A stretch of 20,253 nucleotides of DNA from a virus: positions 1 to 20,253 of the IMG/VR virus record IMGVR_UViG_3300020404_000081; one strand, 5' to 3'. A model generated the notes under the pieces. The model did no database searches. It saw only the letters and a program-made list of their open reading frames with translations, and was not told the origin of the DNA. Within the stretch, counting starts at the first letter, position 1; each line of letters begins with the position of its first letter. Position numbers and translations under genes: made by a program. This document shows positions 3-17,781 of the stretch, piece after piece.

Positions 3-137
3 GGCAAGAAAAAAGTATCATTGAACGGTGAAGTTAAACCAGTATATGATGACGAAGGTATATTGATTGAACAAGGCGTTAAACACTTTGTAGATAATGA
101 AGCAGATACTTGGGGGTTAAGTATCGGAGTTGTATAA
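3..137 (+). CDS. C-terminal fragment of an upstream gene, unidentified
   Basis: An open frame enters from the left edge and gives 44 residues ending in DTWGLSIGVV before a TAA at 135-137. The fragment is lysine-rich at first and then acidic, with no motif I can name. It is very likely the real end of a gene, because its stop overlaps the next start in a TAATG junction and its last codons supply that gene's ribosome binding site. The product cannot be named from this piece; in such a genome a baseplate or tail protein is possible, but that is a guess from context only. Confidence 0.6.
   Translation, partial: GKKKVSLNGEVKPVYDDEGILIEQGVKHFVDNEADTWGLSIGVV
126..129 (+). promoter_or_regulatory. 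Ribosome binding site that fixes the start of the first radical SAM gene
   Basis: GGAG lies seven bases upstream of the ATG at 137, inside the end of the preceding gene. The frame could be extended upstream to a TTG at 110, but that codon has no comparable site. The ATG also places CX3CX2C at residues 13-20, the usual place for a minimal radical SAM protein. Confidence 0.6.
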
Positions 138-1168
138 TGAATTGGATGTTTTATCTTAAAACAACCGAGACCTGCAATCTAAATTGTAAACATTGTTTTA
201 CTTCAGGTATCAATGGTCCTAAAGTCTACTGGAATCCAGATAAGATTATCAAGTGGCTTAAAAATTTCAGAAAATATAATTTTCAAAAACACGATACAGC
301 ACATTTAGAACTACACGGTGGCGAACCGTTTTTAGTTCCTGTGTCTGAAATGCAATATGTCTATGACGCCACAAAGAATTTGTGGGAACAACAATCAATG
401 GGCATAACTTCCAATCTAGTTTTCAAACTTAAACAAGAACATATTGACTTTATCAAAGGTCCATTAGGTAATAGATGTGGAACAAGTTGGGATCCTAATA
501 TAAGATTTGCAAATGAGAAACAAGCAAACTTATGGCGTAAGAATGTAGAGACATTAATCGCCGAAGGTGTCAATATTAAACTTTTTATTTCAGTAACCAA
601 AGACACAATTAGAATTGAACCTATTGAATTACTAAAATGGGTAAGAGATTTGGGTGTAAAAGAAATGGCACTAGAAAGATTGACTGGAAATGGTAATGCA
701 AACTTACATCCAGAGATATTTCCTAGTAATATAGAACAAGACAAGTGGTTTTTGAAAATGCACGAACAATCTATTGAGTATAATACAAGAGATTGGTTTG
801 AAAATGAGTTTTTTGAGACAATTTATTCAAAATTTGAGTATGGTTCAACAAAAGATGGCACATTTTGCCGAGATTGTGAACAAAAACTATTTACACTTAA
901 CGCAACAGGCACAATAGGCGGTTGTCCTAACGCAGCTCCCGAGTTTAATTTTGGAACTTTAGATGACCCTCTAGTAGAACTTATAAATAGTCCTAAGAGA
1001 TTAGAAAATGTTGCTTGTGAAGTGGCAAGGAACCCTAAATGCTTTGATTGTGAAGTATTTAAATATTGTGGAGGCGACTGCCATCAATTAGAATGGCAAG
1101 GTAATGTATGTGGTGCTCCTAAATCTCTTATGAAGCACTTAAAGAAACAAAGTGAGGCGAAATGGTAA
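137..1168 (+). CDS. Radical SAM/SPASM-type protein, first of four
   Basis: This 343-residue protein has the radical SAM signature CX3CX2C at C13, C17 and C20 (context ETCNLNCKHC), which binds the [4Fe-4S] cluster that cleaves S-adenosylmethionine to a 5'-deoxyadenosyl radical. GGEP at 61-64 is the usual SAM-binding motif. The C-terminal part has many more cysteines (C244, C247, C263, C294, C302, C305, C311, C315, C325), including CFDCEVFKYCGGDC, a classic SPASM pattern for auxiliary Fe-S clusters. SPASM proteins commonly modify peptides or proteins. The gene overlaps the next start by seven bases (ATG at 1162), so it is translationally coupled to the gene with the Cys-His-Xaa-Ser tail, its most likely substrate by position. 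The family call is firm; the substrate is inference. Confidence 0.93.
   Translation: MNWMFYLKTTETCNLNCKHCFTSGINGPKVYWNPDKIIKWLKNFRKYNFQKHDTAHLELHGGEPFLVPVSEMQYVYDATKNLWEQQSMGITSNLVFKLKQEHIDFIKGPLGNRCGTSWDPNIRFANEKQANLWRKNVETLIAEGVNIKLFISVTKDTIRIEPIELLKWVRDLGVKEMALERLTGNGNANLHPEIFPSNIEQDKWFLKMHEQSIEYNTRDWFENEFFETIYSKFEYGSTKDGTFCRDCEQKLFTLNATGTIGGCPNAAPEFNFGTLDDPLVELINSPKRLENVACEVARNPKCFDCEVFKYCGGDCHQLEWQGNVCGAPKSLMKHLKKQSEAKW
982..989 (+). promoter_or_regulatory. Possible internal late promoter (TATAAATA)
   Basis: An exact TATAAATA lies inside the first radical SAM gene, 172 bases upstream of the start of the CHxS-tail gene. If active, it would let that virion-like gene and those after it be made late, independently of the upstream transcript. 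The distance to the next start is much longer than at the other sites (19-25 bases), and AT-rich coding sequence can produce the octamer by chance, so support is weak. Confidence 0.25.
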
Positions 1169-1935
1169 CTTTAAATAACCCGATAACGAGTCAAAACATA
1201 GTAGATAGATTTGAGGAACTGGTAACTGATATAGCAGACCACCATATTGTATGGGGTACTGATAATTTACCTGGTCACTCGGCATTTTCTGCTTCTGATT
1301 TTGGTGGAGTTGTTGATGGATTTAATCTTAACTTGATAAATGTATCAGGTTCTTATACTCAAAACGAAACCGTAACCGGTTCTATTACAGGTACAATAGG
1401 TACCGTAGTTAGTTGGTCTAACAATGTATTAAAAGTTAGAAACATAGTACCAGGTTCTGGTCAAACAGGATTTTTACAAAACGATATTATATCTGGAACT
1501 AATTCTGGTGCTGTAGGTTCTGTAAATACTTTTAACGAAGTAAATGCTGTATCTATCGGTATCACAGGTTCATCTATTGGTAATGCAGGTTCATTAATTA
1601 CTGCAAACCAAATTTATACTACACTTAAAAATGAAATGAACACTTATACTAATATTAAAAACACAAACGCTGTAGTTAATATGACAGGTGCAGGACAACA
1701 ATATTCAGATACACAAATTGCACACTTACCAACATCACAAAGAACAACTTTAAATCCAAGTCAACCTAGTAGTTTACAAGCAGGTCAAACTATTGATGAT
1801 AACAACTTGGAAGGTTTCTTTTCAACACTTGCAAACTCTTATAATACTGAAAGAGGAAACACTTATACATTGACAAAAACTATTTGCCACAGCAGTTGCC
1901 ACGGTAGTTGCCACGGAAGTAGAGGAAGAAGATAA
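1162..1935 (+). CDS. Virion-like protein with a (Cys-His-Xaa-Ser)x3 C-terminal tail; candidate modified substrate
   Basis: This 257-residue protein has three parts. Residues 1-50 are a mixed N-terminal segment. Residues 60-125 hold two beta-type repeats (SGSYTQNETVTGSITG at 62-77 and TGFLQNDIISGTNSGAVG at 102-119), of a kind seen in marine phage structural proteins. A Thr/Ser/Asn/Gln-rich part follows, and the last 16 residues are CHSSCHGSCHGSRGRR (242-257). That tail contains the only cysteines in the protein: C242, C246 and C250. The start has GAGG at 1152-1155, and the stop overlaps the next ATG (TAATG). Lying directly behind a radical SAM/SPASM gene, it looks like a RiPP-like substrate fused to a structural body. 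The HxS spacing recalls HxsA of the His-Xaa-Ser systems, but homology is not shown. An unmodified metal-binding or nucleic-acid-binding tail is the main alternative. Confidence 0.85.
   Translation: MVTLNNPITSQNIVDRFEELVTDIADHHIVWGTDNLPGHSAFSASDFGGVVDGFNLNLINVSGSYTQNETVTGSITGTIGTVVSWSNNVLKVRNIVPGSGQTGFLQNDIISGTNSGAVGSVNTFNEVNAVSIGITGSSIGNAGSLITANQIYTTLKNEMNTYTNIKNTNAVVNMTGAGQQYSDTQIAHLPTSQRTTLNPSQPSSLQAGQTIDDNNLEGFFSTLANSYNTERGNTYTLTKTICHSSCHGSCHGSRGRR
1885..1920 (+). repeat. Three tandem 12-base repeats encoding Cys-His-Xaa-Ser
   Basis: Units at 1885-1896, 1897-1908 and 1909-1920 follow TGCCACrGnAGT and differ only at two positions, all of them in the third codon. The unit is exactly four codons, so gain or loss of a copy would keep the frame and change the number of CHxS units. 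All three use the C-ending TGC and CAC codons, in a genome that mostly uses T-ending ones, which suggests recent duplication of one unit. Confidence 0.9.
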
Positions 1936-2627
1936 TGATTGAATCTATAGTACCAATTGAATTAAAAGACTTAAAAAAATACTTTGAAGACAAAACAGAA
2001 ACTTATCTATTAGACTATGAAAACAGCACATTGAAAGGTGCTCAGTTTTTGACATATTTAAGTAATTTAGATATACCTTGTGATATTAAGAATATGGACG
2101 AAGAACTAATAAGTGAGTATCTTAAATCTCAAATGTTAGTTAGTATACCTAAATTAGAGAAAGAAATAATTGCTGTATTATTTGAACACAAAGGGTTGAC
2201 AAAGACAGATAAATATAAGAGTGTTATAGAAGAGAACAAAGAGATACTTGACAAATGGGCAGGTAAATTAGAAAGTCTACCATTATATAATATGTCAATT
2301 GTCGGTGAAGGTGCTTTCAATGATTTTGTTGAGAGTTATCCTAAAGACGAAACAGAAGATGTAAGAGGTATCAACTTTGTTTCATTATTGAAACACAAAG
2401 AATTTTATAGTTATTATCAAATGCCAAAAGAAAACATTGTTAAGAATTATACAAAGTACTTTAAAGAATATATGTTTAAAGGTAAATCTTTATTTGAATA
2501 TTGGGCAAACGCAAGTAACCCATTATTCTTAATGACTTGGGCAGTTGCTGAAGGCAAATTTGATAGTAAAGAATATAACAAAAGGAAAATGGAAGGTGTA
2601 CAAAATCTTCCACTAGAGAGTAAATAA
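1935..2627 (+). CDS. Unrecognised 230-residue acidic/helical protein
   Basis: I do not recognise a family. The protein is rich in Lys, Glu, Tyr and Leu, appears mostly helical, has a single cysteine (C49), and shows no signal peptide or membrane segment. Its C-terminal third is aromatic (FYSYYQMPKENIVKNY, FKEYMFKGKSLFEYW). The start overlaps the stop of the CHxS-tail gene (TAATG), so the two are translationally coupled and probably made together. That makes it a candidate partner, chaperone or assembly factor for the tailed protein. This role is inferred from position only. Confidence 0.85.
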   Translation: MIESIVPIELKDLKKYFEDKTETYLLDYENSTLKGAQFLTYLSNLDIPCDIKNMDEELISEYLKSQMLVSIPKLEKEIIAVLFEHKGLTKTDKYKSVIEENKEILDKWAGKLESLPLYNMSIVGEGAFNDFVESYPKDETEDVRGINFVSLLKHKEFYSYYQMPKENIVKNYTKYFKEYMFKGKSLFEYWANASNPLFLMTWAVAEGKFDSKEYNKRKMEGVQNLPLESK

Positions 2628-2628
2628 T

Positions 2629-3744
2629 ATGCTACACTTATTTAATAAAGTTTATTTAGCGTTTGACGATTCAATAGATTGTCATACTAACAGATATGTA
2701 ATATCAGAAGAAGTTGGTAATGAAATGCACCAAGAACTTCAAAGTACATATAGAGGTAGTTTACTTAATTACGCAAAAAATAAAAACGAAATGCAAGGTA
2801 AGTTTGGTGACTTAACTGGTTTCTTTGAAGATGTAAATACTAAACAGAAATCATTAGGAACTAAAGTTATCATTTACTGCGATAGTCAAGCATACCTAGA
2901 AATATCTGTAACCTGGTTAAAAACTATGTTGCCGTATGCTGAAAGTGCTGAAATACAAAAGTTTTTAGATATTCATTTACACCACGAAAAAATTATTGCA
3001 AATACACAACTACAACCTACTCATACTTTAGCACTAACTAAATTAAATTCAGGATTAGGAAATGTAAGTGGTTATTTCAATGTTTTACCAACACTTGATA
3101 TAGATAGAATAAAAGCTCTTAATTTAAATTTCTCAATTGAATTATTGTTAGGCGAATACTTTGCTGGTGCTGATACTCACCAAGCAAATTTATTGTCTAC
3201 TTGGCATATGTTCTTAAAAAGATTTTATAAAGAAGTGTTGACAGATAGTAGAGAAGGTGCTGCTCTTAATCTTTTAAATAGTAATCAACAAACTGCGTTA
3301 GGTTATACTAGTGATGATGTTGATTTGAATGCTGATAATCCATTTACAGGAATTACACCATTAGCACCATTTGCTGACGAAGATGTATTCACACAAAAAC
3401 CTACTGCAACGGTCGGTGCTGTGAATATTGCAAACATAGATGGTCTTTCTACAGAAAAACAAACTGCATTGAAAACTTTAGTTAAAGACTTATATGATTT
3501 CCAGAACTCTCCGGATCCTGATTACTTTATGAACCATTTAGATAAAGCTTGTGATTCAAGTTTATCTGCTGAAGATTTTGATACAATTATTACTGAAACG
3601 GTGAATAGTCCATCTAGTCTATCTTATATCCCTAGATTTGATATTGGAAATATAAACTATACTTTCTTACAATATCTTTTCTCATTGAAAAAATCTAACG
3701 ATACAGACACATTAGGAAAATACAGACTATTCGCAAACTCATAG
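2629..3744 (+). CDS. Unrecognised 371-residue protein following the CHxS gene pair
   Basis: No family is recognised. The N-terminal 100 residues alternate hydrophobic strands and helices (KVYLAFDDSID, GTKVIIYCDSQAYLE), consistent with an alpha/beta domain. A His cluster, HLHH, lies at 116-119. The middle is rich in Asn, Leu and Ala, and the C-terminal part (about 260-371) looks helical and acidic. Three cysteines are widely spaced (C18, C84 and one near 308), with no Fe-S motif. The start lies one base after the previous stop, with AGAGAG upstream. Its place between the putative substrate and the second radical SAM gene suggests a role in the same process or in the particle, but nothing in the protein shows which. 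Confidence 0.85.
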   Translation: MLHLFNKVYLAFDDSIDCHTNRYVISEEVGNEMHQELQSTYRGSLLNYAKNKNEMQGKFGDLTGFFEDVNTKQKSLGTKVIIYCDSQAYLEISVTWLKTMLPYAESAEIQKFLDIHLHHEKIIANTQLQPTHTLALTKLNSGLGNVSGYFNVLPTLDIDRIKALNLNFSIELLLGEYFAGADTHQANLLSTWHMFLKRFYKEVLTDSREGAALNLLNSNQQTALGYTSDDVDLNADNPFTGITPLAPFADEDVFTQKPTATVGAVNIANIDGLSTEKQTALKTLVKDLYDFQNSPDPDYFMNHLDKACDSSLSAEDFDTIITETVNSPSSLSYIPRFDIGNINYTFLQYLFSLKKSNDTDTLGKYRLFANS

Positions 3745-3752
3745 GAGTTTAA

Positions 3753-4805
3753 ATGCGAGAGTTTTTAATAGACCCAAAAAGAGACCCAGAGCAAGAGTAC
3801 ACAATTCACTTATTTGAATTTTGTAATCTGCGTTGTGCTTTCTGTTGGCAAAACCACGAAGATACAATCGGTATTGATAATGTGGTTGATAAACTTCCAT
3901 CTATAGAAAAATTTGTTTCAAAAGAAATGTATATGAAAGTCACCTTTAATATTATGGGTGGCGAAGTCTTTGCACCTGCAATCTATAACAGAAATCTAAA
4001 CGAAGGTTATAAACTTCTATCAAAAGGCATACAAAAGATATGTCAAAGGTACGATAAAGAATTTTCAATCAATTGGGTATCTAACTTGGTTACATCACCT
4101 GATGGTAATGAACTCATTATGGACTTACTTAAATGGTCCAGAGAAGAAGATATACCTTGTAGACTTACAACAAGTTATGACCCACGAGGTAGATTTAATA
4201 AAAAAGACTTTGAGATATTTAAATCTAATGTAGAATATTGGGGTGATGAAGTTACCTGTTTCTCTTGTCTACTTACAAAACCTAATATAAACTTTTATTT
4301 AAATGAAGGCGATGAATACTTTGATTATTTGTATAATCAAGGTAAGTACATATATTTTGATTATTATATGCCAGATGAACACGCAAAATATAATATGCCT
4401 AGTGATGAACTATTATTAAAGTTTTTTAAACATTGTGTTGACAAATATCCAAATGTTCATCCTGTAAGAGACTGGATATTTAATAAAAAGAATTATGCAA
4501 GTTGTAGAGTATCTAAACTTGTTTTAGCAGATGGTACATTATGTCAATGTGGTAACCTTGTACAAGATGAGAAATCATTAAGTCAATATAAGTCGCCCAT
4601 TAAAAGAAAAGACAATAGTATTATAGAAAACTCTTTCCTAGAGAAATATAATTGTAGTAGTTGTGAATTTTTAGATAGATGTACACTTGGCTGTTTTATG
4701 AACCACGATTATAGATATAAGGAGGAGTTGGATGAATGTGTTTACAAACTTACGCACAGATATATTGAAGATGTACGACTACAGCGAAACTATATCGCAA
4801 ACTAA
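3753..4805 (+). CDS. Radical SAM/SPASM-type protein, second of four
   Basis: The protein has 350 residues, with CX3CX2C at C24, C28 and C31 (FCNLRCAFCW) and the SAM-binding GGE at 69-71. The C-terminal auxiliary-cluster region has C251, C264, C266, C301, C304, C310, C314 and C329, including CSSCEFLDRCTLGC, a SPASM-like arrangement. An [4Fe-4S]-dependent SAM-cleaving enzyme acting on a peptide or protein is the natural reading. The start has AGGAG (3743-3747) at normal spacing. The end overlaps the next gene by 74 bases, unusually long for this region. It is clearly diverged from the first radical SAM protein outside the motifs, so it is probably a separate activity, not a recent duplicate. 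Confidence 0.93.
   Translation: MREFLIDPKRDPEQEYTIHLFEFCNLRCAFCWQNHEDTIGIDNVVDKLPSIEKFVSKEMYMKVTFNIMGGEVFAPAIYNRNLNEGYKLLSKGIQKICQRYDKEFSINWVSNLVTSPDGNELIMDLLKWSREEDIPCRLTTSYDPRGRFNKKDFEIFKSNVEYWGDEVTCFSCLLTKPNINFYLNEGDEYFDYLYNQGKYIYFDYYMPDEHAKYNMPSDELLLKFFKHCVDKYPNVHPVRDWIFNKKNYASCRVSKLVLADGTLCQCGNLVQDEKSLSQYKSPIKRKDNSIIENSFLEKYNCSSCEFLDRCTLGCFMNHDYRYKEELDECVYKLTHRYIEDVRLQRNYIAN
4721..4727 (+). promoter_or_regulatory. Strong ribosome binding site inside the second radical SAM gene
   Basis: GGAGGAG, close to the full anti-Shine-Dalgarno complement, sits four bases before the ATG at 4732, within the preceding coding sequence. It is the best such site in the left half and supports the long overlap over the alternative in-frame ATG at 4771-4773. 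Confidence 0.65.
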
Positions 4806-5361
4806 TTATTTCAATTTTCCTAAACATATAGAAGTACAACTAGATAACTTTCCTGTAGAGAAACCATATCTACCTAGAATAGATGGTAGACAAGCACATA
4901 TGTTTTTATGGTTAGGCAAGAAAGAAGAAGATGGTGAACTATATGAGATTGCAAAGAAAACTAAAGGCGAAAGACAATGGGTTCAAAACAAGACGCCAGG
5001 CACATTTATTAAGGGCGTAGGAATGTTTCATATCTATGACGAGTATGTTATAGTCGGTTCTTTGAAATATGCCGGTTATATGAAGAATAGACCTGCAAAA
5101 GAAAATAGACATTTAATAAGAACTATGTGGTGTGAGACTATAAACATATTTAAAGATAAAGATATATTGTGTCCTTCAGGTACTTACTTTGATTGGTTAC
5201 ATTTAACAATGAATCAAATGAGAGCACAAAAAGAACCATATCATAGAGAAATAATGTGGCAGTTTGGATTTGATAAAATTGTTGAAGGTAAATTAAAAGA
5301 TTATTGGATTAGAAGAAAAGAAAATAAAACTGGACTTGACTGGATAGGAAGATGGACTTAA
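4732..5361 (+). CDS. Unrecognised 209-residue protein between two radical SAM genes
   Basis: No family is recognised with confidence. The protein is basic and aromatic, with conserved-looking stretches LPRIDGRQAHMFLWLG, GVGMFHIYDEYVIVGS and CPSGTYFDWLHLTMNQM. The closing GFDKI...KDYWIRR faintly recalls the end of GNAT-type acyltransferases, but I do not see a convincing acetyl-CoA loop. It has only two cysteines and no transmembrane segment. Its first 74 bases overlap the second radical SAM gene and its last ten overlap the third, so it is translated as part of that pair. A partner or substrate-recognition role is possible by context only. Confidence 0.85.
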   Translation: MNVFTNLRTDILKMYDYSETISQTNYFNFPKHIEVQLDNFPVEKPYLPRIDGRQAHMFLWLGKKEEDGELYEIAKKTKGERQWVQNKTPGTFIKGVGMFHIYDEYVIVGSLKYAGYMKNRPAKENRHLIRTMWCETINIFKDKDILCPSGTYFDWLHLTMNQMRAQKEPYHREIMWQFGFDKIVEGKLKDYWIRRKENKTGLDWIGRWT

Positions 5362-6446
5362 TTATAAAACCTACTGAACTTTGTAATTTTAAGTGTACCT
5401 TTTGTTCAAGTACACAACTTACAAATGAGAAAAAGAACTGGTTGAAACACGACCAGATATTTCGTTTTTTAGAAAGATTTCCAGAAACTAAAACTATAAT
5501 AGTAAATGGTGGTGACCCATTGATGATGGCACCTGATTACTACTGGAAGATTATTGAATGGTTAGATAATAAAGGTTATGATACTTCACTTGCATTAACA
5601 ACTAACTTGTGGCCTTTCTATAAGAAACCTAAACTATGGGTTGACTTATTTAATAATGATAGAGTAGGTATTACAACTTCTTTTCAATATGGTGGTGGTA
5701 GATTAAAAGGAGACTATTCAGAATTTACAGAAGAAGACTTTTGGAAGTGTTCAGATACTATGTTAGAGTATTGTGGTTATAGACCAGATTTTATATCTGT
5801 TATCACAAGAGAAAATGAACACAACGCAATTAAGAATGTTGAACTTGCAAAAAGAATGTCAGAAGATAAAATGCCAGAAGGTACTTTACATAACTTTTGG
5901 CGAGAAGAAAAGACAGGCGTAGAATGTAAGTTAAATTATGCAATGGCAAGTGGTGAACAAAAAGAGCCTTTTTTGTTATCAGATATATATGAGAAGTATG
6001 TAGAAATCTATAGGGCAGGTTTAGCACCTTGGGAGTTTAATACTAGACAGATGATGTTAGCAATCAACGATAGTGCTACAAGTTGTCCGTTAAGTAGAAA
6101 ATGTGATGAAGGTATTAGATGTTTACAACCAGATGGCGACTACTATAGTTGTGGTGCTTTTGGTGATGATAAAGATAAGTCTATAGATTTTGAAGAAGAA
6201 ATGAAAGGTAAGTTTTTTACACCTTTACAAGATAGTTTAGAGTTAACTACAATGAAAAAGAATTGTTATAGTTGCCCTATGTTTAATATATGTAATGGTT
6301 GTAGAAAGACAATTAAAGATTATAAAGAAGCAGGAGTTGTAGAAAAACATTGTGAGAAAATGAAAAGAATAGGACACGATATTTTAATCGCAAATAATAA
6401 ACCTCACATATCAATGACACCTTATGAGAGAGAATATGCAAGTTAA
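5352..6446 (+). CDS. Radical SAM/SPASM-type protein, third of four
   Basis: This 364-residue protein starts almost directly with its cluster motif: C11, C15 and C18 (ELCNFKCTFC). GGD at 53-55 takes the place of the usual GGE. A cysteine-rich C-terminal region has C245, C251, C257, C267, C305, C308, C314, C317 and C334 (CYSCPMFNICNGC), which fits SPASM auxiliary clusters. The ATG overlaps the previous stop by ten bases. The last bases overlap the start of a dioxygenase-like gene, which links oxidative and radical chemistry in one transcript. Peptide or protein modification is the family-based expectation; the substrate is unknown. Confidence 0.93.
   Translation: MDLIIKPTELCNFKCTFCSSTQLTNEKKNWLKHDQIFRFLERFPETKTIIVNGGDPLMMAPDYYWKIIEWLDNKGYDTSLALTTNLWPFYKKPKLWVDLFNNDRVGITTSFQYGGGRLKGDYSEFTEEDFWKCSDTMLEYCGYRPDFISVITRENEHNAIKNVELAKRMSEDKMPEGTLHNFWREEKTGVECKLNYAMASGEQKEPFLLSDIYEKYVEIYRAGLAPWEFNTRQMMLAINDSATSCPLSRKCDEGIRCLQPDGDYYSCGAFGDDKDKSIDFEEEMKGKFFTPLQDSLELTTMKKNCYSCPMFNICNGCRKTIKDYKEAGVVEKHCEKMKRIGHDILIANNKPHISMTPYEREYAS
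6426..6432 (+). promoter_or_regulatory. Ribosome binding site choosing ATG 6436
   Basis: The purine run GAGAGAG precedes ATG 6436 and overlaps the alternative upstream ATG at 6424, which has no such site of its own. It lies within the last codons of the third radical SAM gene. Confidence 0.45.
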
Positions 6447-6888
6447 ACATAATGTATTAACAAACTTGGAACTTAATCATATGATAAGTGAACTAGGTAA
6501 TCTAGGCAAAGATTATCCTATCTATGAAAAGAATGTACATAAGAAATTACCAGATGATTGGAAATGGGCAGATAGTATCTGTAAATTAAATGTACCTAAT
6601 GTAAAACATTGTATCGTTAGGTATGTTATCGCTGTAAATAGTAAAGATGAAGAAAAGAATATTATAGGGTTTCATACAGACAGCGATGTAAAAGGAGAAA
6701 AAACTATTATATTATATTTACAAGGTGATAGTAATAAAGGTGGTCAAATACAAGTTGAAGATAAGACTTATGACTTTAGACAAAACGCAATGTTTATTAT
6801 GGACTCTCATTTAGTACATAGGGCAATGCCTTATTGGGGAGAAAAAACAAGACTTGCAATTAAATGGAGATGGACTTGTGAGGGGTGA
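6436..6888 (+). CDS. 2-oxoglutarate/Fe(II)-dependent dioxygenase-like protein, first of a tandem pair
   Basis: The 150-residue protein has the facial-triad pattern of this superfamily: H80-x-D82 (GFHTDSD), a distal H128 (HLVHRAMP) and R139 eleven residues later (EKTRLAIKW), the usual 2-oxoglutarate carboxylate ligand. GGQIQV between them is typical of the core jelly roll. It is short but complete for the prolyl-4-hydroxylase-like core. Such enzymes hydroxylate amino-acid side chains, nucleic acids or small molecules. I prefer ATG 6436 over ATG 6424 because GAGAGAG (6426-6432) precedes only the former. It follows the third radical SAM gene with an 11-base overlap. Confidence 0.88.
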   Translation: MQVKHNVLTNLELNHMISELGNLGKDYPIYEKNVHKKLPDDWKWADSICKLNVPNVKHCIVRYVIAVNSKDEEKNIIGFHTDSDVKGEKTIILYLQGDSNKGGQIQVEDKTYDFRQNAMFIMDSHLVHRAMPYWGEKTRLAIKWRWTCEG

Positions 6889-7399
6889 ACACGATTTATC
6901 AAACTTAATAATAAATGGAGTATGGCCACATAAAGACCTTGCACCTTTTAAATTCTTTGAAGGTGTACAGATACCTTTTGTAGAAACGAAAGGAGAGTAT
7001 ACGGTTGCTGTTCATACTGAAAAGGTTGCACACGCACTTACCACAACCCACAAATATTTGGGTGATAAATATATTAGTAAGTTGTCTAGTAGATATACAT
7101 TACACGGACGACCTGAAATTGTCAATGGTGTAGATAAAGAAAGTACACTTTGGCACAATGACTTGAAAGAAGGAGCAAACATTGCTATATTAATGTACTT
7201 TACAAATGCTTGTAATAAAAAACAAGGTGGTTCTTTATCAGTTAGAAATAAAGAAACAAAAGAATTATCTTGTTGGTTATATCCAGGTAAGAACGATTTA
7301 ATATTTTTAAATCATAGTAAAGTATGGGAACATAGAGTTGGTAAATTCAAACTAATTGATAGTGAAAGAATTGTAGGATGTTTTAATTATAATATATGA
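6878..7399 (+). CDS. 2-oxoglutarate/Fe(II)-dependent dioxygenase-like protein, second of a tandem pair
   Basis: The protein has 173 residues from the GTG at 6878, with the triad H93-x-D95 (LWHNDLKEG), distal H152 (VWEHRVG) and R164 (SERIVGCFNYNI), plus GGSLSVR and LYPGKNDLIFLNH in between, as expected of the jelly-roll core. The frame is open upstream to a TTG at 6854, but GTG 6878 with GGAG at 6865-6868 overlaps the previous gene by 11 bases, the local pattern. There is no ATG start. It is diverged from its neighbour, so the pair probably acts on different positions or substrates. Peptide hydroxylation after or before radical SAM chemistry is possible; an unrelated nucleotide or metabolite substrate cannot be excluded. 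Confidence 0.87.
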   Translation: MRGEHDLSNLIINGVWPHKDLAPFKFFEGVQIPFVETKGEYTVAVHTEKVAHALTTTHKYLGDKYISKLSSRYTLHGRPEIVNGVDKESTLWHNDLKEGANIAILMYFTNACNKKQGGSLSVRNKETKELSCWLYPGKNDLIFLNHSKVWEHRVGKFKLIDSERIVGCFNYNI

Positions 7400-7971
7400 A
7401 AAATAAGATATTTCCAAACGGCAGAATACACGCCTCAAAAGAACAAGATTTAGATTACTCAAATGGATACCTTGCGTTATCAGTAAGTCCATTTGACAAT
7501 AACTTTGACAATGAAGTTGAGAAAGGTGTATTACCTCATTGCCACGCACTTATTAGAAAAGGTTATCTTCCAATATCAAGTTGCGAAGGACACTTTACTA
7601 AAAAACACCATATGCCATTTTATGTAATGTTAGCAGTTGGTGGTAAAAACAAATTAGATAGAATATACGATATAATAAACAAGACAAAACATATACCTGG
7701 TATATCATATAAAATTAAAGAACAACAAGCAAATGTAAGAGGTGAACTATTAGAAAGAGTAAACTATAGTTTAGATAAAGCAGAAGAGTATGCTGAACTA
7801 AACAGATTGTTTATGAGAAATCATTTAGAGTATAATTATCTCTGGATAGGTTTATTTCAAAGTGATAAGAAATTATCAGAAAGAATTTTAAGAAGACTTA
7901 TGTTTAGTAGATGTAAGAAAATGTTATTGAATAGTATTGAGGTGTTGAACTATGACGAAGCCGAAGATTAA
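7396..7971 (+). CDS. Unrecognised 191-residue protein with a Cys/His cluster (SCEGHF)
   Basis: No family is firmly recognised. A cluster of possible metal ligands lies in the N-terminal half: H48, C49, H50 (LPHCHAL), C63 and H66 (SSCEGHF), then H71 and H72. The SC-x-GH pattern in a 'sees a substrate' context is reminiscent of small phage proteins and, very loosely, of TYW3-like proteins, but I would not assign that. The C-terminal half is helical and basic (ERILRRLMFSRCKKML). The start overlaps the previous stop as ATGA with no clear ribosome binding site, so translation probably depends on re-initiation. Confidence 0.85.
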   Translation: MKNKIFPNGRIHASKEQDLDYSNGYLALSVSPFDNNFDNEVEKGVLPHCHALIRKGYLPISSCEGHFTKKHHMPFYVMLAVGGKNKLDRIYDIINKTKHIPGISYKIKEQQANVRGELLERVNYSLDKAEEYAELNRLFMRNHLEYNYLWIGLFQSDKKLSERILRRLMFSRCKKMLLNSIEVLNYDEAED

Positions 7972-8899
7972 TCTGTCAATCAATCCATCTTATTTTTGTA
8001 ATTTTAGATGTCCTTGGTGTTATCTAAAACCTGAACAATTAGGTGACCAAAAATGTATTGACCATTTTAAATTAAGTGAACTATTAAATGAAGTACAAAC
8101 TCATAGAGATATAGAACACATTGATTTATATGGTGGTGAGATAGGCGTATTAAAAGAAGGTGCATTAGAAAAAATCACAAATGCAATTAAGATATACTAT
8201 AAAGAAAAGATTAACATAAACACTAACTTATCTATGATGAGAGAAGAGTTTATGAATCCTGATTATTTTATTAGTGTTAGTTATGATATGGAGAGTAGAG
8301 AAGAAAACGAAAAAGTATGGAACAATATGATGAAACTGCCTGTTCCTTTTTCTGTTTTGATACTTGCAAATGAAAAAGTATTAAAAACATCAACTCAACA
8401 TATATGGTCTAAAATGATACACTTGACTAAAGACAATCAAAACTTTCAAGGATTTGAAATTAAACCTTATAGTACTAATCAGGCAAACCAACATCCTATC
8501 ACTCACGCACATTTTGAAGACTTTATATTAAGAATGTTAGAGACTAAACCTAACCAATGTCCTGTACATTTTATTAATGAAGACAATATTAAAGACTCTC
8601 TTAATAGTAGTTATAACGCATACAGCGATGACCATTTATATATTACACCTAATGGTAAGTTTGCTGTATTAGATTTTGATAAAGACGATAATGAATATTT
8701 TTTAGAACTTGATAGTTTTGCTGATTACGAAGTATGGTGTCAGAAAGAAAAAGAACAAAACATTTCCGATATATGTCGTAAGTGTGAATATCTAGGTAGA
8801 TGTCTAACTGAACATTACAGATATGTTAAAAGTCTAAAAGATGGTTGCAATGGGTATAGGTATCTATTGGATACTTATTCGTTTAAATATGGCAAATAG
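7952..8899 (+). CDS. Radical SAM protein with a short C-terminal cluster region, fourth of four
   Basis: This 315-residue protein has CX3CX2C at C16, C20 and C23 (YFCNFRCPWCY) and GGE at 61-63. Its C-terminal cysteines are fewer than in the other three: C263, C275, C278, C284 and C299 (CRKCEYLGRC), enough for one auxiliary cluster (Twitch or shortened SPASM) and probably not two. The gene overlaps its predecessor by 20 bases with GAGG upstream, and its end overlaps the next. It is probably a distinct activity from the others, and the substrate is unknown. Confidence 0.92.
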   Translation: MTKPKINLSINPSYFCNFRCPWCYLKPEQLGDQKCIDHFKLSELLNEVQTHRDIEHIDLYGGEIGVLKEGALEKITNAIKIYYKEKININTNLSMMREEFMNPDYFISVSYDMESREENEKVWNNMMKLPVPFSVLILANEKVLKTSTQHIWSKMIHLTKDNQNFQGFEIKPYSTNQANQHPITHAHFEDFILRMLETKPNQCPVHFINEDNIKDSLNSSYNAYSDDHLYITPNGKFAVLDFDKDDNEYFLELDSFADYEVWCQKEKEQNISDICRKCEYLGRCLTEHYRYVKSLKDGCNGYRYLLDTYSFKYGK

Positions 8900-9677
8900 A
8901 GCATTTTGTATAGGTAACGGAACAAGTAGAAAAGGTTTTAAATTTTCTACTATCAAAGGACGAGGTGTTATATTAGGTTGTAATAATCTCTATAAAGATT
9001 TTGCACCTGATATTCTAGTCGCAATGAAACATCCTGTTATGCACAAAATTTATCAATCAGGTTATGGTTATACTGCTAGATGTTATTTTAGAGATTGGGC
9101 ACCTAACACACACGAAAGATATGAGACTATGTTAAATAGTTTCTTTCCTGGGTATAGACATTTACGAGCAATCAGACAATCAGGTCTACTTAAAGAAAAT
9201 CAACGAGTAGGTTCTGATAGATTTTGTTTACACGGATATGATGATGAAGGACAAAGAAAAGTTAATGTAAGTTGGTTAACAGATGACCTAGTAAAAAATT
9301 TTACAGACATACAGAAAACACCTGAACAAACAGAATGGGCAACAGGTCCTGCAAGTGGTTATGTTGCTTGTAAAGAGATAGCAGAATTAAAAGAAGTGTA
9401 TCTAATTGGACACGACATATATAGTATGTCAAATAAATTTAATAACATATATGCCGGACAAGAATTTTATAAACAAGATACACACCCTAGTCAATACTAT
9501 TTACAAAACTGGATATTTCAATGGCGTCAACTCTTCAAGTGGTACCATTGGGTTAAGTTTTATAAAGTAAATAGAAAGGCTATGTTAAATGTCAATATTC
9601 CGGAGTGGAATGAATGTAGAAATTTGGAGTATATAAGTTATGAAAGAATGGAAGCTCAAACAAGAAGTATATCATAG
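8889..9677 (+). CDS. Possible glycosyltransferase-like protein (GT42/DUF115-type pattern)
   Basis: With the ATG at 8889 the protein has 262 residues and begins RAFCIGNGTSRKGF, a nucleotide-binding-like GNG loop at 9-11. VILGCNNLY (27-35), TGPASG (152-157) and VYLIGHDIY (170-178) follow. This order resembles the CstI/CstII sialyltransferases (GT42) and the DUF115/Maf proteins, which have GNGPSL, a CN segment, SG and a G-D motif. The match is weak and by eye. A longer start at 8841 would add 16 hydrophobic residues lying inside the previous gene and before the GNG loop; I reject it. If the call is right, it may glycosylate a virion protein or nucleotide. Confidence in a gene is high; the function is low-confidence. 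Confidence 0.8.
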   Translation: MANRAFCIGNGTSRKGFKFSTIKGRGVILGCNNLYKDFAPDILVAMKHPVMHKIYQSGYGYTARCYFRDWAPNTHERYETMLNSFFPGYRHLRAIRQSGLLKENQRVGSDRFCLHGYDDEGQRKVNVSWLTDDLVKNFTDIQKTPEQTEWATGPASGYVACKEIAELKEVYLIGHDIYSMSNKFNNIYAGQEFYKQDTHPSQYYLQNWIFQWRQLFKWYHWVKFYKVNRKAMLNVNIPEWNECRNLEYISYERMEAQTRSIS

Positions 9678-10050
9678 ATTAAATCCTACTCATAAAGATA
9701 CATTGAACGATAAGGAGATATATCTTATATGGGAAGATAATGATATAATTCTAAATGCAAAAAGACATTGGGTAGAACAGGTAGATAGATTTATCTATCC
9801 TGCAAAGAGTTATTGCGTAGCGATATGTTATGCAAAGTGGATAGAGAGAGATTATGGAGATAACTTTTACGACTTGTTAAACGATAAAGACTTGTTGTAT
9901 GGTAATGACCCTTACTTTGAAATATACAATGGGAAGAAACACATTTATGACCCAATCATAGAAGCGTTTCCTAAAGATGAACAATTGGGAATGATACCAG
10001 ATATTAGAGACTATTATGAAAAAGAAATACGATATGACGGTGGAATCTAA
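9640..10050 (+). CDS. Unrecognised 136-residue protein closing the enzyme cluster
   Basis: No family is recognised. The protein is rich in Asp, Tyr, Trp and Lys (YLIWEDNDIIL, FIYPAKSYCVAICYAKWIERDYG) and has two cysteines (C69, C73). The start overlaps the previous gene by 38 bases, with GGAG eleven bases upstream. It is the last gene before the first late promoter, so it marks the end of the overlapping enzyme operon. A functional link to the radical SAM genes is suggested only by overlap. Confidence 0.82.
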   Translation: MKEWKLKQEVYHRLNPTHKDTLNDKEIYLIWEDNDIILNAKRHWVEQVDRFIYPAKSYCVAICYAKWIERDYGDNFYDLLNDKDLLYGNDPYFEIYNGKKHIYDPIIEAFPKDEQLGMIPDIRDYYEKEIRYDGGI

Positions 10051-10324: not shown

Positions 10325-10666
10325 ATGGCTGCGATAGCAAATTTAAGACTAGACCAAGGAACTACATTTTCCTCAAATATAACACTTGCAGGAAATGATG
10401 GAGCTGCTTGGGACTTGACTGGTCATACCGTTGCTGCTAAAATGGCAAAAGGATATGAGAGTACAAAGACTAGGATAACTATGACAACTGCTGTCGCTAA
10501 CCCGACTACAGGCATTATTACACTATCATTGACTTCAGCTCAGACAAGCGCCCTGGATGCGCCTGCGAGATATGTTTATGATGTAGAGGTTACTAATACT
10601 ACTTCAGGAGTGGTTACGAGAGTAATTGAAGGTATTATAACCGTGCGTCCTAATGTGACCATTTAA
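10325..10666 (+). CDS. Small Ig-like virion protein, 113 residues
   Basis: The sequence begins AAIANLRLDQGTTFS, typical of a widespread family of small phage structural proteins, and continues as alternating beta strands (GIITLSLTSAQTS, RYVYDVEVT, RVIEGIITV). The start lies four bases after the previous stop with only a weak ribosome binding site, so it is coupled to the coiled-coil gene. It is probably a tail or fibre-attachment component. The family is usually annotated only as structural or hypothetical. Confidence 0.85.
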   Translation: MAAIANLRLDQGTTFSSNITLAGNDGAAWDLTGHTVAAKMAKGYESTKTRITMTTAVANPTTGIITLSLTSAQTSALDAPARYVYDVEVTNTTSGVVTRVIEGIITVRPNVTI

Positions 10667-10704
10667 ATATTCTAAATACTATTAGTTTTTGAATACCCTT
10701 CGGT

Positions 10705-10712
10705 TATAAATA
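10705..10712 (+). promoter_or_regulatory. T4-type late promoter (TATAAATA)
   Basis: An exact TATAAATA lies in the 69-base gap, 23 bases before the GTG at 10736. The spacing is close to that of the other late-promoter-like sites in the window. I saw no strong hairpin terminator in the same gap. Confidence 0.8.
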
Positions 10713-10735
10713 TTAACAATTAAGGGAGACTAAAA

Positions 10736-10993
10736 GTGTCGCAAATAAAAGCAAGAATAGATTCTACAATAAGCAGACCGCAACAAGTATCGGTCACTAT
10801 GCCTGCTGGTGCAGCCTCACAAACTGCTGTTACCAATTCAACTTTGAAATTAAGACTTCTACAAGATGTTGACGCTAGTACCTTAGCAGACGGTAGTATG
10901 ATTCAGTATTCTGCAACAAGTGATAAATTTGTTGTAAGAGACGAGATAACAACTACAACTGGTTCAATAACACTAAATGGTGGTTCATTTTAA
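10736..10993 (+). CDS. Small virion protein with a GTG start, ending in GGSF
   Basis: The protein has 85 residues. The GTG start is fixed by GGGAG (10724-10728) and by a stop-free frame beginning SQIKARIDSTISRPQQVSV. It is beta-rich (MIQYSATSDKFVVRDE, TTGSITLNGGSF). Small proteins of this style occur in T4-like marine phages next to tail adapter genes. The last four residues, GGSF, are identical to the end of the next, much larger protein, which hints at a shared assembly motif. Confidence 0.8.
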   Translation: MSQIKARIDSTISRPQQVSVTMPAGAASQTAVTNSTLKLRLLQDVDASTLADGSMIQYSATSDKFVVRDEITTTTGSITLNGGSF

Positions 10994-11018
10994 GGAAGTA
11001 AAAAGAGAGAGTTAAGAT

Positions 11019-12755
11019 ATGGCAACAATAATTAGAATAAAACGAAGTGCTAACACTTCTGCTCCAAGTACTCTAAAACTCGGAGAATTAGCGTTAACCT
11101 ACGGTACTGGTACTGCAGGAAATAACGGAGATAGATTATTCATAGGTACAGGTGGTGTAGATACAAATGGTGACGCAAACGATATTGATGTAATTGGTGG
11201 TAAGTATTTCACAAGTTTATTTCCATCTACAAACGGTGTTATTACCGCTGAAAAATTAATAACAACAGATTCAAACAAAAGAATTGACGAGATTATAGTT
11301 GGTAACGAAACAACTAACTCTGGTCGTATAACTTTTAATGAAGCTACAAACAACGGTTCAAACAATGTTGTTTTAAAAGCTCCATTATCATTAACAAATT
11401 CATCAACACTATTATTACCTGATGGTGCTGGTTCACAAGGACAATTTCTAAAAGTAATATCTGCTTCTGGTACTGAAGCTCAATTAGGATTTGACGCTGT
11501 TGATACCACACTAACAATTGAAGATAGTGCTGGTGCAACAACAGATTACTCAACTAACTCTACTCTATTACTTACAGGTGATGGAACGATTGATACTGCG
11601 GTTACTAATAATACGGTAACTATTAAAGTACAAGACGGTGGAGTTGGAACAACACAACTTGCTGCTAATGCGGTAACAAATGCTAAACTTGCAAATGACG
11701 GTGTAACCTTAGGTTCTACTGCACTAACTCTCGGTGGTACTACAACTGACCTTGCAGGATTAACAAATGTTGTTGTTGACCATTTAACAATTGATGGACA
11801 AGATATTGCCACATCAGCTGCGAACAGAAATATTACTTTAACACCACACGGAACTGGAACGGTTACCGTACCTAGTGGATATAAAGATAGAGCTGGTTTC
11901 GCTTCTGACTCACTTGCAACAAAAGAATATGTTGATAGTGCTTCAAGTGGTTTAGATGTAAAAGATAGTTGTAGAGTTGCTACTACAGCAAACTTATCTG
12001 CTACATATGACCAATCAAATGGTAGACTAGACAATTCAGGAACTCAAGCCGCACTAACTATTGACGGTATTGCATTATCACAAAACGATAGAGTACTTGT
12101 TAAAGACCAAACAGAAGCTAGACAAAACGGTATCTACATTGTAGAAATCGTTGGTACTAACTCTACTAATTGGAGATTAACAAGAAGTGATGACGCAAAT
12201 ATCGGTACAGATATAACTGGTGGTACATTTACTTTCGTAGAAGAAGGTACTGCTAATAGTGATAACGGTTATGTGTTCACACACAATGGTACACCTACAA
12301 TAACAGATAGTACACTTTCTAACAATACTGAAATGCCAGTATCACAATTCTCTGGTGCAGGACAAGTAGTTGCTGGTGCAGCTATGGTAAAAGCAGGAAA
12401 TACTTTAGATGTTAATGTAGACAATACTTCAATCGCTGTAATATCAGACGCTTTATCTATTAAAGCAGGTGGGGTTACAAATGCTATGTTAGCAGGAAGT
12501 ATTGCAAATTCTAAACTTGCGGATCCAAATATCTCACTTGCTGGTGAGAGTGGAACCGGTTCAGTTGGATTAGGTGGTACATTAACTATTTCTGCAGGAG
12601 AAGGAATTGATACTTCTGCTTCAGGTACTGCAATCACAATCGCTGGTGAAGACGCAAGTACAACGAATAAAGGAGTTGCTTCTTTTAGTACTGATAACTT
12701 TACGGTAACAAGTGGTGCCGTTGAGGTTACTACTATTGACGGTGGGTCGTTCTAA
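11019..12755 (+). CDS. Tail adapter/fibre-like structural protein, 578 residues
   Basis: The N-terminus (TIIRIKRSANTSAP, LKLGELALTY, GDRLFIGTG) is the adapter-like module common in phage fibres and tropism proteins. It is followed by long Thr/Asn/Gly-rich beta sequence. A second common phage domain starts near residue 305 (SGLDVKDSCRVATTANL, DRVLVKDQTEARQNGIY). The end, TTIDGGSF, matches the preceding small protein. GAGAGAG (11005-11011) precedes the ATG. It is probably a fibre or fibre-attachment protein of the tail. Several long opposite-strand frames inside it are shadows of its biased base composition. Confidence 0.9.
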   Translation: MATIIRIKRSANTSAPSTLKLGELALTYGTGTAGNNGDRLFIGTGGVDTNGDANDIDVIGGKYFTSLFPSTNGVITAEKLITTDSNKRIDEIIVGNETTNSGRITFNEATNNGSNNVVLKAPLSLTNSSTLLLPDGAGSQGQFLKVISASGTEAQLGFDAVDTTLTIEDSAGATTDYSTNSTLLLTGDGTIDTAVTNNTVTIKVQDGGVGTTQLAANAVTNAKLANDGVTLGSTALTLGGTTTDLAGLTNVVVDHLTIDGQDIATSAANRNITLTPHGTGTVTVPSGYKDRAGFASDSLATKEYVDSASSGLDVKDSCRVATTANLSATYDQSNGRLDNSGTQAALTIDGIALSQNDRVLVKDQTEARQNGIYIVEIVGTNSTNWRLTRSDDANIGTDITGGTFTFVEEGTANSDNGYVFTHNGTPTITDSTLSNNTEMPVSQFSGAGQVVAGAAMVKAGNTLDVNVDNTSIAVISDALSIKAGGVTNAMLAGSIANSKLADPNISLAGESGTGSVGLGGTLTISAGEGIDTSASGTAITIAGEDASTTNKGVASFSTDNFTVTSGAVEVTTIDGGSF

Positions 12756-13138
12756 TGGCTGATACCGTAATAAAACCAAAAAGAAGTTTCACAGCTGCTG
12801 CTGTTCCTCAATTATCTGATTTAGAAATTGGTGAATTAGCAATGAACATTGCTGACGGTAAGTTTTACACGAAGCAAAATGCGAACACTATTAGAGAAGT
12901 TGGTGGTGCAAGTGCTGTTAATATTCAATCAGTATTAAATGCTGGTGCTATTACAACAACTGACTTAACTTTTAATAACGCAAATATAGTATTTGAAGGC
13001 GCTACACCAGACGCCTACGAAACAACATTAACGGTAGAAGACCCGACTGCTGATAGAACGGTTAAACTACCAAATTCTAGTGGAACATTAGCATTGACAG
13101 GAGATATTCTTGCCTTTGCTGTTGTATTTGGAGGATAA
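12755..13138 (+). CDS. Small adapter-like structural protein, 127 residues
   Basis: The N-terminus (DTVIKPKRSFT, LSDLEIGELAMNIADGKFYTK) is a second copy of the adapter module that opens the preceding protein, so the two are probably paralogous at this end. The rest is short: a hinge and a beta segment (TLTVEDPTADRTVKLPNSSG) that also has a counterpart in the bigger protein. The start overlaps the previous stop (TAATG). The final Gly-Gly codons double as the ribosome binding site of the next gene. Confidence 0.88.
   Translation: MADTVIKPKRSFTAAAVPQLSDLEIGELAMNIADGKFYTKQNANTIREVGGASAVNIQSVLNAGAITTTDLTFNNANIVFEGATPDAYETTLTVEDPTADRTVKLPNSSGTLALTGDILAFAVVFGG
13130..13135 (+). promoter_or_regulatory. 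Ribosome binding site made from the last two codons of the previous gene
   Basis: GGAGGA encodes the terminal Gly-Gly before the TAA at 13136 and stands six bases before the ATG at 13142. The C-terminus of one protein is therefore constrained by translation of the next. Confidence 0.6.
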
Positions 13139-13141
13139 TAA

Positions 13142-13471
13142 ATGGCTAGTGCTTTTAAAAACGCAGGACAAACTAACTCACAAGTTGATGATTCAACTGC
13201 AAATGTTTATACAGCGCCATCTAATGGTACTGCTGTATTACACGCTGTTTATATCTCAAACACTTCAACTGATACACAAGCAGAAGTAGATGTAAAGGTT
13301 ACGGTTGATGGTGGTACTACTTTCAAAACAATGATGAGTAATATTATTATTCCACAGAATAACACTTTTATATTAGATAAGCCTGTAAATTTAGAGGCAA
13401 ATGACATTATAAGAGTGATTGCTTCTCACGGAAATACTGATACATTTATTTCGGTATTAGAGAATACATAA
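13142..13471 (+). CDS. Small beta-sandwich virion protein, 109 residues
   Basis: It begins ASAFKNAGQTN and has strands typical of an Ig-like or jelly-roll virion protein (VLHAVYISNTS, EVDVKVTVDGG, FILDKPVNLEANDIIRVIAS). The pattern of a 'trigger' N-terminus followed by NLEANDIIRV is common to small structural proteins of marine myophages. It has no signal peptide or membrane segment and is coupled to the previous gene by a three-base gap. Its place in the particle is not known. Confidence 0.85.
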   Translation: MASAFKNAGQTNSQVDDSTANVYTAPSNGTAVLHAVYISNTSTDTQAEVDVKVTVDGGTTFKTMMSNIIIPQNNTFILDKPVNLEANDIIRVIASHGNTDTFISVLENT

Positions 13472-13483
13472 GATTAAAATAGT

Positions 13484-13491
13484 TATAAATA
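13484..13491 (+). promoter_or_regulatory. T4-type late promoter (TATAAATA)
   Basis: An exact TATAAATA lies in the 45-base gap, 25 bases before the ATG at 13517, with GAGGA in between. Position and spacing match the other late-promoter-like sites. Confidence 0.8.
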
Positions 13492-13516
13492 TAAGAAAAC
13501 GAAGAGGAAGAATTAG

Positions 13517-14014
13517 ATGGCATTAGCATTACCAACAGGAGCTTCACAAGCAGTTGCCGTAGACGCAGCTGGTTTCCAAATCTCTAACGAATATGCTATG
13601 CACGCCCTTAACCGTGATGTTAATGGTCTTTTGATATACACAAAGACCAAATTAGATAGTAATGAGGAAGTGATTGTTAACAGCGGAGAAGGTTTTGGAT
13701 TTAATGGGTTTGAAGGACTTGCAATCGGTAAGGCAAGTGATGGAACAACCGTTCAGAATACACTACAAAGTGATTTTGACGAGAATACAGACGCTCATTA
13801 CCAAACTAACGCAAAGTTTAGAAAGTATCAACAGACAAGATTTGATCCGTTGAAACTTTTTTACTTTTTAAATGATGAAGGTAATCTTGTGGCAAGGTAT
13901 CAACAAGATTATACTTACGCCGCTAGTGAGACAGCAACTTCTACAACTGGAAGCAACTGGATCCCAAGTGGTGGAAACTATTATACCGCTAGTAATGTTA
14001 ACAGGTACTTGTAA
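13517..14014 (+). CDS. Virion structural protein, 165 residues
   Basis: The sequence begins ALALPTGASQAVAVDAAGF and has a Gly/Asn-rich centre (GEGFGFNGFEGLAIG) followed by a Tyr/Asp-rich part (KFRKYQQTRFDPLKLFYFLN). It resembles the unnamed structural proteins found before fibre genes in T4-like marine phages. Directly behind a late promoter and before the large fibre gene, it is probably part of the distal tail or fibre base. The specific role is unknown. Confidence 0.85.
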   Translation: MALALPTGASQAVAVDAAGFQISNEYAMHALNRDVNGLLIYTKTKLDSNEEVIVNSGEGFGFNGFEGLAIGKASDGTTVQNTLQSDFDENTDAHYQTNAKFRKYQQTRFDPLKLFYFLNDEGNLVARYQQDYTYAASETATSTTGSNWIPSGGNYYTASNVNRYL

Positions 14015-14037
14015 AAATTAAATAGAGAGAGATAAAA

Positions 14038-17754: not shown

Positions 17755-17757
17755 ATA
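17750..17757 (+). promoter_or_regulatory. Variant late promoter (CATAAATA)
   Basis: This is a one-base variant of TATAAATA, partly overlapping the end of the fibre gene (the stop TAA lies at 17752-17754). It stands 24 bases before the ATG at 17782. That is the same spacing as the exact copies, so it is probably functional, perhaps weaker. Confidence 0.5.
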
Positions 17758-17781
17758 ATAGTTAAATAGGAAGATATAAAA

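Follow-up and report, generated by a model that had tools for sequence, protein, structure and literature searches.

Radical S-adenosylmethionine (SAM) enzymes with a SPASM domain often modify peptides. The locus analyzed here lies in a viral DNA stretch of 20,253 nucleotides, positions 1 to 20,253 of IMG/VR record IMGVR_UViG_3300020404_000081 (hereafter the window), and places the gene of such an enzyme directly ahead of a gene whose product ends in three Cys-His-Xaa-Ser units, the CHxS tail. We propose that the two form an enzyme-substrate pair that resembles those of ribosomally synthesized and post-translationally modified peptides (RiPPs), in which the SPASM enzyme probably matures the tail and generates a modified tip on a protein of an adhesion apparatus. 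We know of no earlier case of a radical-SAM-matured, RiPP-like mark on a phage protein.

The closest described systems differ from this locus in informative ways. The His-Xaa-Ser systems (HxsA-D), reportedly described by Haft and Basu, also combine radical SAM enzymes with an adjacent protein in which H-x-S recurs; in the present locus, however, a Cys stands ahead of every His, the units lie at the very C-terminus and they close with an RxRR end. The paper of Haft and Basu on Hxs systems is cited in the accessible part of PMC9062424. The triceptide or three-residue cyclophane enzymes include XncB, OscB, MscB, HaaB and YhhB, and His-Xaa-X3 crosslinks are made by HaaB, YhhB and ScaB and Phe-Xaa-Ser crosslinks by MscB (PMC11002830, in the portion available to us). 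These are likewise SPASM radical SAM enzymes that act on aromatic-x-residue motifs, with His first in HaaB and YhhB, whereas the putative substrate of the present system is a folded protein with a median length of 187 residues.

Profile searches against the SPASM and Hxs families, which an earlier note on this DNA had suggested, gave a divided answer. The window enzyme belongs to SPASM (TIGR04085, 32.0 bits with a cut-off of 27), while the likeness to Hxs that the note had drawn extends to the motif and not to membership in the models. Among the matches listed, the main enzyme scores 32.0 of 370 bits for HxsB (TIGR03978) and the third radical SAM enzyme of the window scores 30.9 of 267.9 bits for HxsC (TIGR03977). 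NCBIfam, which presumably also holds models of HxsA and HxsD, contains no family that matches the tail protein or the two conserved proteins encoded downstream, F3 and F4, at E 0.05. The models of YhhB, FxsB, AmcB and GrrM gave the main enzyme 17.8-33.6 bits against cut-offs of 310-445. What the locus has in common with RiPP systems is a conserved core in a gene product that adjoins a modifying-type enzyme. As far as sequence allows us to judge, the system works like RiPP maturation but fits no modelled family tested.

Two other enzyme-substrate types were rejected. Sulfatase maturases recognize a C/S-x-P-x-R motif. Formylglycine formation by an anaerobic sulfatase maturase was dismissed at 35.4 of 349.45 bits for TIGR03942, and in 176 of 177 tail proteins the would-be Pro site before the Arg at -4 is occupied by G, S, T, N, A, C, V or D. 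Heme c attachment was also dismissed, given that the c-type cytochrome motif is CXXCH and the tail reads CX3CH.

The enzyme and the tail protein

The central features of the window are as follows.

137..1168, + strand: main SPASM radical SAM enzyme, 343 residues from the ATG at 137, with CX3CX2C at residues 13, 17 and 20
1162..1935, + strand: tail protein, 257 residues, with a beta-rich insert at approximately residues 52-127 and the CHxS tail at its end
1885..1935, + strand: tail, CHSSCHGSCHGSRGRR and stop

The open reading frames (ORFs) confirm the arrangement first noticed, in which the two genes, the first complete ones of the window, lie on the same strand and overlap by seven bases; in the ORF list, the enzyme frame starts at an upstream TTG (110). 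In addition to the CX3CX2C motif, the enzyme carries C-terminal Cys residues at 244, 247, 263, 302, 305, 311, 315 and 325, and the motif and the eight SPASM-type Cys are each kept in at least 118 of 121 unique relatives. The enzyme matches PHROG 1802 (radical SAM, 1.3e-65) and reaches 24.5 bits with Pfam Radical_SAM, below the cut-off of 29.5 (E 3.6e-5). A single-sequence search found no solved structure matching it at E 0.01.

The tail is 16 residues long and has the general form CHxSCHxSCHxSRxRR. The window protein terminates in ICHSSCHGSCHGSRGRR and contains Cys nowhere else. The earlier statement that all cysteines lie in the tail thus holds for this protein and for 131 of 177 unique relatives, a set that is partly pattern-selected; the other 46 have one to three Cys ahead of the last 16 residues. 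Across these 177 proteins, whose lengths range from 67 (cut) to 364 residues, position 4 of the 531 units is Ser in 465, Asn in 44, Ala in 15, Gln in 4, Arg in 2 and Lys in 1. The last 48 residues of the window protein match PHROG 35144, annotated "unknown function".

Strong protein-level constraint acts on the tail. Enzyme-selected loci yielded 68 unique tail proteins (65 from virus contigs and three from named phages), a set restricted to proteins with three Cys among their last 40 residues. Every one of them keeps the three Cys-His pairs and the Arg residues at -4, -2 and -1, and the codons of these fixed residues vary synonymously. In an alignment of 79 members, with rows partly chosen via the tail pattern, mean column identity is 22%, and the nine tail residues are the only invariant columns. 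Nine family members have no exact tail. We saw no degenerate tail, because six of the nine are N-terminal halves and three are pieces cut by contig ends. Four-unit tails occur in three virus contigs, and F3 follows downstream in the two that were newly fetched. In six fetched loci (L019, L020, L021, L023, L105 and L187, some from the same contig), the N-terminal half is fused to a Gly-rich stretch, which we take to be an adhesin-type insert, and the tail lies on the next ORF, as seen at L019:7016-8384, where a separate ORF just downstream bears it.

What kind of protein carries the tail? The AlphaFold2 (AF2) model has a mean predicted local distance difference test (pLDDT) score of 90.2, with the last two blocks at 65 and 55 and the tail itself at 55-65. 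In BFVD, the model has 32 matches at E ≤ 0.001, which include cyanophage structural, neck and fibre proteins (1e-5 to 4e-4, approximately 80 columns). In a VIA-align comparison, the PDB rows span residues 52-126, and the best row is a Klebsiella phage baseplate chain (Z 7.7, root-mean-square deviation 2.3, 70 aligned residues). Judged from this span, the BFVD matches appear to fall on the beta-rich insert. The BFVD likeness and the fibre neighbours are indirect signs that the tail protein is a phage structural protein. The tail family gave three matches to solved structures at E 0.034-0.97, which we take as chance, and a scan of the 79 tail proteins against NCBIfam gave a single match in one protein (DegP-like, 0.0058).

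Co-occurrence of the tail with radical SAM genes

The tail is in the constant company of radical SAM genes. An enzyme-only search of virus contigs returned 209 stretches with a relative; among the best 80 of these 209, an exact tail frame is present in 75, and the other five contigs stop 3 to 284 bases past the enzyme match. Every locus with room for a tail gene (75/75) therefore carries one. A tail-first search of virus contigs with the back-translated pattern yielded at least 119 stretches. Two profiles identified a radical SAM ORF in 114 of 119 fetched stretches; for the five others (L125, L129, L172, L197 and L204), a search of the entire record gave a match to Pfam Radical_SAM. Consequently, all 119 have a radical SAM gene nearby or in the record, and the finding that would have spoken against the earlier proposal, a tail common without radical SAM genes, was not made; the search for the tail elsewhere that the note had called for came out in its favour from both directions.

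Thirty-one of the tail-selected stretches lacked a match to the main enzyme. A whole-record search of 34 records with Pfam Radical_SAM gave matches in 33 at E ≤ 0.001, of which 30 exceed the cut-off. This search had no phage background of its own, and its yardstick is the occurrence of the main enzyme in 7 of 50,697 named-phage records. The 18-kb record G019 (L199/L240) has no Pfam Radical_SAM match but contains two ORFs of a divergent radical SAM family. The reversed tail pattern had no match in 26 virus records or in sets of 14, 129 and 143 genomes; because the forward pattern matches at least 119 virus stretches, the tail is not a product of chance. The proposed enzyme-substrate pairing is well supported.

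The divergent family accounts for a second layout, in which a fibre-like ORF is followed by two tail proteins of approximately 127 residues and then by the divergent enzyme. Since these tandem-tail loci have a divergent-family enzyme beside the tail, the enzyme that accompanies the tail differs among loci. In samples of 80 members drawn with each of five seeds, CX3CX2C is present in all 80 and four C-terminal Cys are present in 77-80. A 385-residue member sits at a Pfam Radical_SAM match under the cut-off (19.3 bits, E 2.4e-5), and a 391-residue member matches annotated radical SAM proteins of phage DT01 (9e-9). Tandem tail proteins whose bodies differ and whose tails are near-identical were observed at L066:7088-8601, L165:11752-13467, L098:2523-3286 and similar sites, and they give the impression of several proteins sharing a single set of enzymes.

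Named phages

Radical SAM genes have been listed for jumbo phages FLC6, S13 and phiRP12/31 and for pelagimyophages (PMC8066314, PMC11898562, PMC5468394, PMC7029224), and a phiRP31 virion proteome has been published (PMC5468394). The parts of these papers available to us do not mention the tail. The seven named-phage records with the main enzyme, at 42-52% identity, are Phosso, Atu_ph07 (two records), FLC8, FLC6, SURPRISE13 and pPa_SNUABM_DT01. F3 is encoded in all seven, and the tail is present in all six that were inspected. It was read directly in Phosso, Atu_ph07 (one record), FLC8 and DT01, with one CHx2CHx2CH site per whole genome, and was identified by C-terminal similarity in FLC6 and SURPRISE13. 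FLC6 therefore shares with the window the enzyme, the tail by similarity and F3.

A tblastn search with a 22-residue tail consensus found no match in phages or plasmids, a null result that reflects the limit of a short query because named phages do hold the tail. The window tail protein has no named-phage match at 1e-3, and the tandem-type tail protein has none at 0.01. The Campylobacter phages CP220 and CPt10, with 11 and 12 radical SAM proteins (PMC2853527, in part), resemble the present system in having many such genes in one phage; however, the CHx2CHx2CH pattern is absent from the 177,534 bases of CP220. Our search of the open-access literature, which excluded preprints and in which such a motif is hard to find by words, did not find the tail.

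Predatory bacteria

The cassette is not confined to phages. Among 84,980 bacterial and archaeal species genomes, 19 stretches match the pattern and 16 of them are tails. Three were dropped: L220, whose units lie within a longer frame rich in Arg; L221, whose frame has 29 residues; and L227, in which no stop follows the pattern. Eight of the 16 tails stand under Bdellovibrionota titles, and a ninth, L233, is in the same class as one of these; the remaining tails outside Bdellovibrionota are in bins with phage-like or unplaced contigs. A radical SAM gene lies in the fetched stretch for 15 of the 16. The tail is sporadic in two classes, since only 5 of 129 and 3 of 143 genomes have it. As judged by eye from N-termini, the flanks of L248 (bS20-like, acyl-CoA-type) and L251 (ABC-F-like, oxidase-like) look chromosomal. 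Because all predator assemblies are metagenome bins or drafts, binning errors are possible.

In a tree of 62 main enzymes, seven of them from Bdellovibrionota assemblies, phage and predator sequences are mixed: the predator label has to change four times or more, and the predators form a single group in none of 200 bootstrap trees; some rows are long-branched. Conservation and synteny of the cassette, its co-occurrence with the tail and its sharing between phages and predators are direct observations.

Bdellovibrio MAT fibres contain S74 chaperone domains and have a phage likeness (PMC10769870, as far as accessible; the word "post-translational" does not occur in its main text). Similarly, an S74 domain lies within approximately 9 kb of the tail in five of the nine Bdellovibrionota stretches, four by Pfam and the fifth by a profile built from those four, which also matches the virus loci L028, L038 and L201. 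The S74 proteins beside tails, in contrast to the MAT fibres, have 345-413 residues, one with a prepilin N-methylation match. Beside the S74 genes, we also observed a family of approximately 200 residues ending NGRHWVKVK-like (L251:1130-1729, L248:7195-7824, L254:1563-2156, L247:16951-17505 and L249:15129-15755), and the two members scanned have no Pfam match. At L226:3135-5406, the tail gene lies at a contig end near ORFs that look pilin-like by eye from their N-termini.

Proposed mechanism and alternatives

We propose that the upstream-encoded SPASM enzyme acts on the second protein and matures its invariant C-terminal tail, with each Cys-His-Xaa-Ser unit most likely crosslinked. Our first guess is three-residue cyclophanes from His C2 to Ser/Asn C-beta because His-x-X3 and Phe-x-Ser crosslinks have precedents (PMC11002830, in part). 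The Cys may form a thioether, our second guess, or stay free as a metal or redox ligand, and the fixed RxRR end may serve as the handle of the enzyme. F3 and F4 are likely partner proteins, and further radical SAM enzymes and oxygenases would add marks to the same tail or to nearby fibres. The product would be a modified tip of some stiffness, borne by a tail fibre or baseplate protein in phages and by a surface fibre in predatory bacteria. We infer the adhesion role from fibre neighbours, fold likeness, S74 genes and the radical SAM cassettes of the pelagimyophage host recognition cluster (PMC7029224, in part). More tentatively, and with less confidence than in the pairing, we suggest that a cassette with several radical SAM genes may be shared and exchanged by phages and predators and may equip adhesion fibres with a crosslinked tip, the modification site being the near-universal CHxSCHxSCHxSRxRR tail.

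Several observations weigh against this proposal. The role of the tail as substrate, the bond type, the virion location and the recognition role are reached by inference. On L226, a contig of 5.4 kb that breaks off within the tail gene, the 5.2 kb downstream contain neither a radical SAM gene nor F3. The divergent family is related to the main enzyme only weakly by hhalign (E 1e-4 to 7e-3, probability 5.5-57%). Fold comparison with the PDB gave nothing at E ≤ 0.001 for the body of the tail protein. Neither Pfam nor NCBIfam has a match for F3, so that no known leader-binding domain was found; by profile, F3 is missing in 3 of 21 stretches, in two of which tblastn finds it, and F4 is missing in 13 of 21. 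Finally, the main profile finds between zero and seven radical SAM ORFs in each of 21 fetched stretches, a large number for one short tail; the stretches with zero, L240 and L245, both carry the divergent family.

The tail could instead be the core of a true RiPP or a small-molecule scaffold, with the body as a long leader and the product released in the cell and not on particles. An invariant tail on a variable body would suit such a precursor, as would the radical SAM ORFs, up to seven per fetched stretch, and the decorating enzymes seen at two loci (a B12-type candidate with an adjoining 2-oxoglutarate (2OG) oxygenase, and a tryptophan-halogenase-like gene at a locus edge). We nevertheless consider it unlikely, as the model shows a folded body whose BFVD matches include phage virion proteins; no protease or exporter was noticed by eye in the mapped stretches, for which no profile search was made. 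Some phage spikes carry metal at the tip. The invariant alternation of Cys and His would accordingly also fit three Cys-His pairs that bind zinc, iron or an Fe-S cluster, with the radical SAM enzymes acting on another cassette substrate. This alternative appears less likely again, given that a bare metal site leaves unexplained both the three fixed Arg and the radical SAM company of all 119 tail-selected virus stretches, although metal binding may be part of our proposal because a modified tail could also bind metal.

Less probable still is a role of the enzymes in remodelling sugars of the host surface, or some other metabolite, with the tail protein as a docking partner and not a substrate. 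The pelagimyophage host recognition cluster with radical SAM cassettes does contain glycosyltransferases (PMC7029224, in part), and F3 and F4 are other conserved partners; however, the tail repeats residues that can be modified, lies at a free C-terminus and occurs in tandem copies on bodies that differ.

If the tail is modified in the way that we propose, it would be, to our knowledge, the first such mark, present in at least 119 virus stretches and testable in cultured Phosso, Atu_ph07, FLC6/FLC8, SURPRISE13 and pPa_SNUABM_DT01. Radical SAM genes that phage papers list unexplained would gain a function, the tail would be a new substrate motif and F3 a new accessory family, and the recognition gear of phages and predators would be linked through one exchanged module. 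Should the cassette-exchange reading also be true, viruses would carry non-proteinogenic chemistry on host-recognition machinery.

Cassette and gene neighbourhood

The common cassette comprises a radical SAM gene, the tail protein, F3 of approximately 250 residues, further radical SAM enzymes and 2OG oxygenases. In the window, it contains four radical SAM and two oxygenase-like genes, which the earlier note had overlooked. The remaining features are as follows.

1935..2627, + strand: F3, conserved cassette protein, PHROG 20767, AF2 mean pLDDT 94.3
2629..3744, + strand: F4, conserved cassette protein of the "MxHLF" family (name coined here), with relatives in 164 fetched loci
3753..4805, + strand: second radical SAM enzyme (Pfam, PHROG, profile)
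5352..6446, + strand: third radical SAM enzyme (Pfam, PHROG, profile)
6424..6888, + strand: oxygenase-like protein, without a Pfam match itself and recognized by its neighbour's profile (7.4e-8)
6890..7399, + strand: 2OG-Fe(II)-oxygenase-like protein, PF13640, E 1.9e-5, 25.9 bits (cut-off 27)
7952..8899, + strand: fourth radical SAM enzyme (Pfam, PHROG, profile)
9640..10050, + strand: small cassette protein, 136 residues, with relatives in 20 fetched loci
10325..20253, + strand: neighbouring tail-fibre region with L-shaped fibre assembly, tail fibre and baseplate PHROGs, and RCC1-like repeats near the far end

Around the 177 unique tail genes, the preceding gene is radical SAM by profile in 109, another gene in 32, a tail gene in 21, a contig end in 13 and on the opposite strand in 2, and the following gene is F3 in 115, another gene in 26, a tail gene in 18, F4 in 7, an end in 6, opposite in 4 and radical SAM in 1. 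These counts rest on a simple gene caller that overlooked some genes, among them the tail gene of Phosso. The F3 model, built from 64 rows with invariant Pro7, Tyr41 and Asn44, has no PDB match at E ≤ 0.001 (best VIA-align Z 3.5); the absence of PDB fold matches for the tail protein and F3 does not prove new folds. F4 has no family in Pfam, PHROG and NCBIfam scans.

At L251, a B12-type radical SAM candidate, with both Pfam matches under the cut-off, adjoins a 2OG oxygenase. These two genes and a halogenase-like gene at L256 suggest lineage-specific decoration. The latter, tryptophan-halogenase-like (L256:3-1300, Pfam E 3.1e-53), lies at the cassette edge of a partly masked stretch. At the far end of the window, 17782-20253 encodes a large protein with similarity at its end to RCC1-like (regulator of chromosome condensation) PHROGs, which is odd for a phage fibre region.

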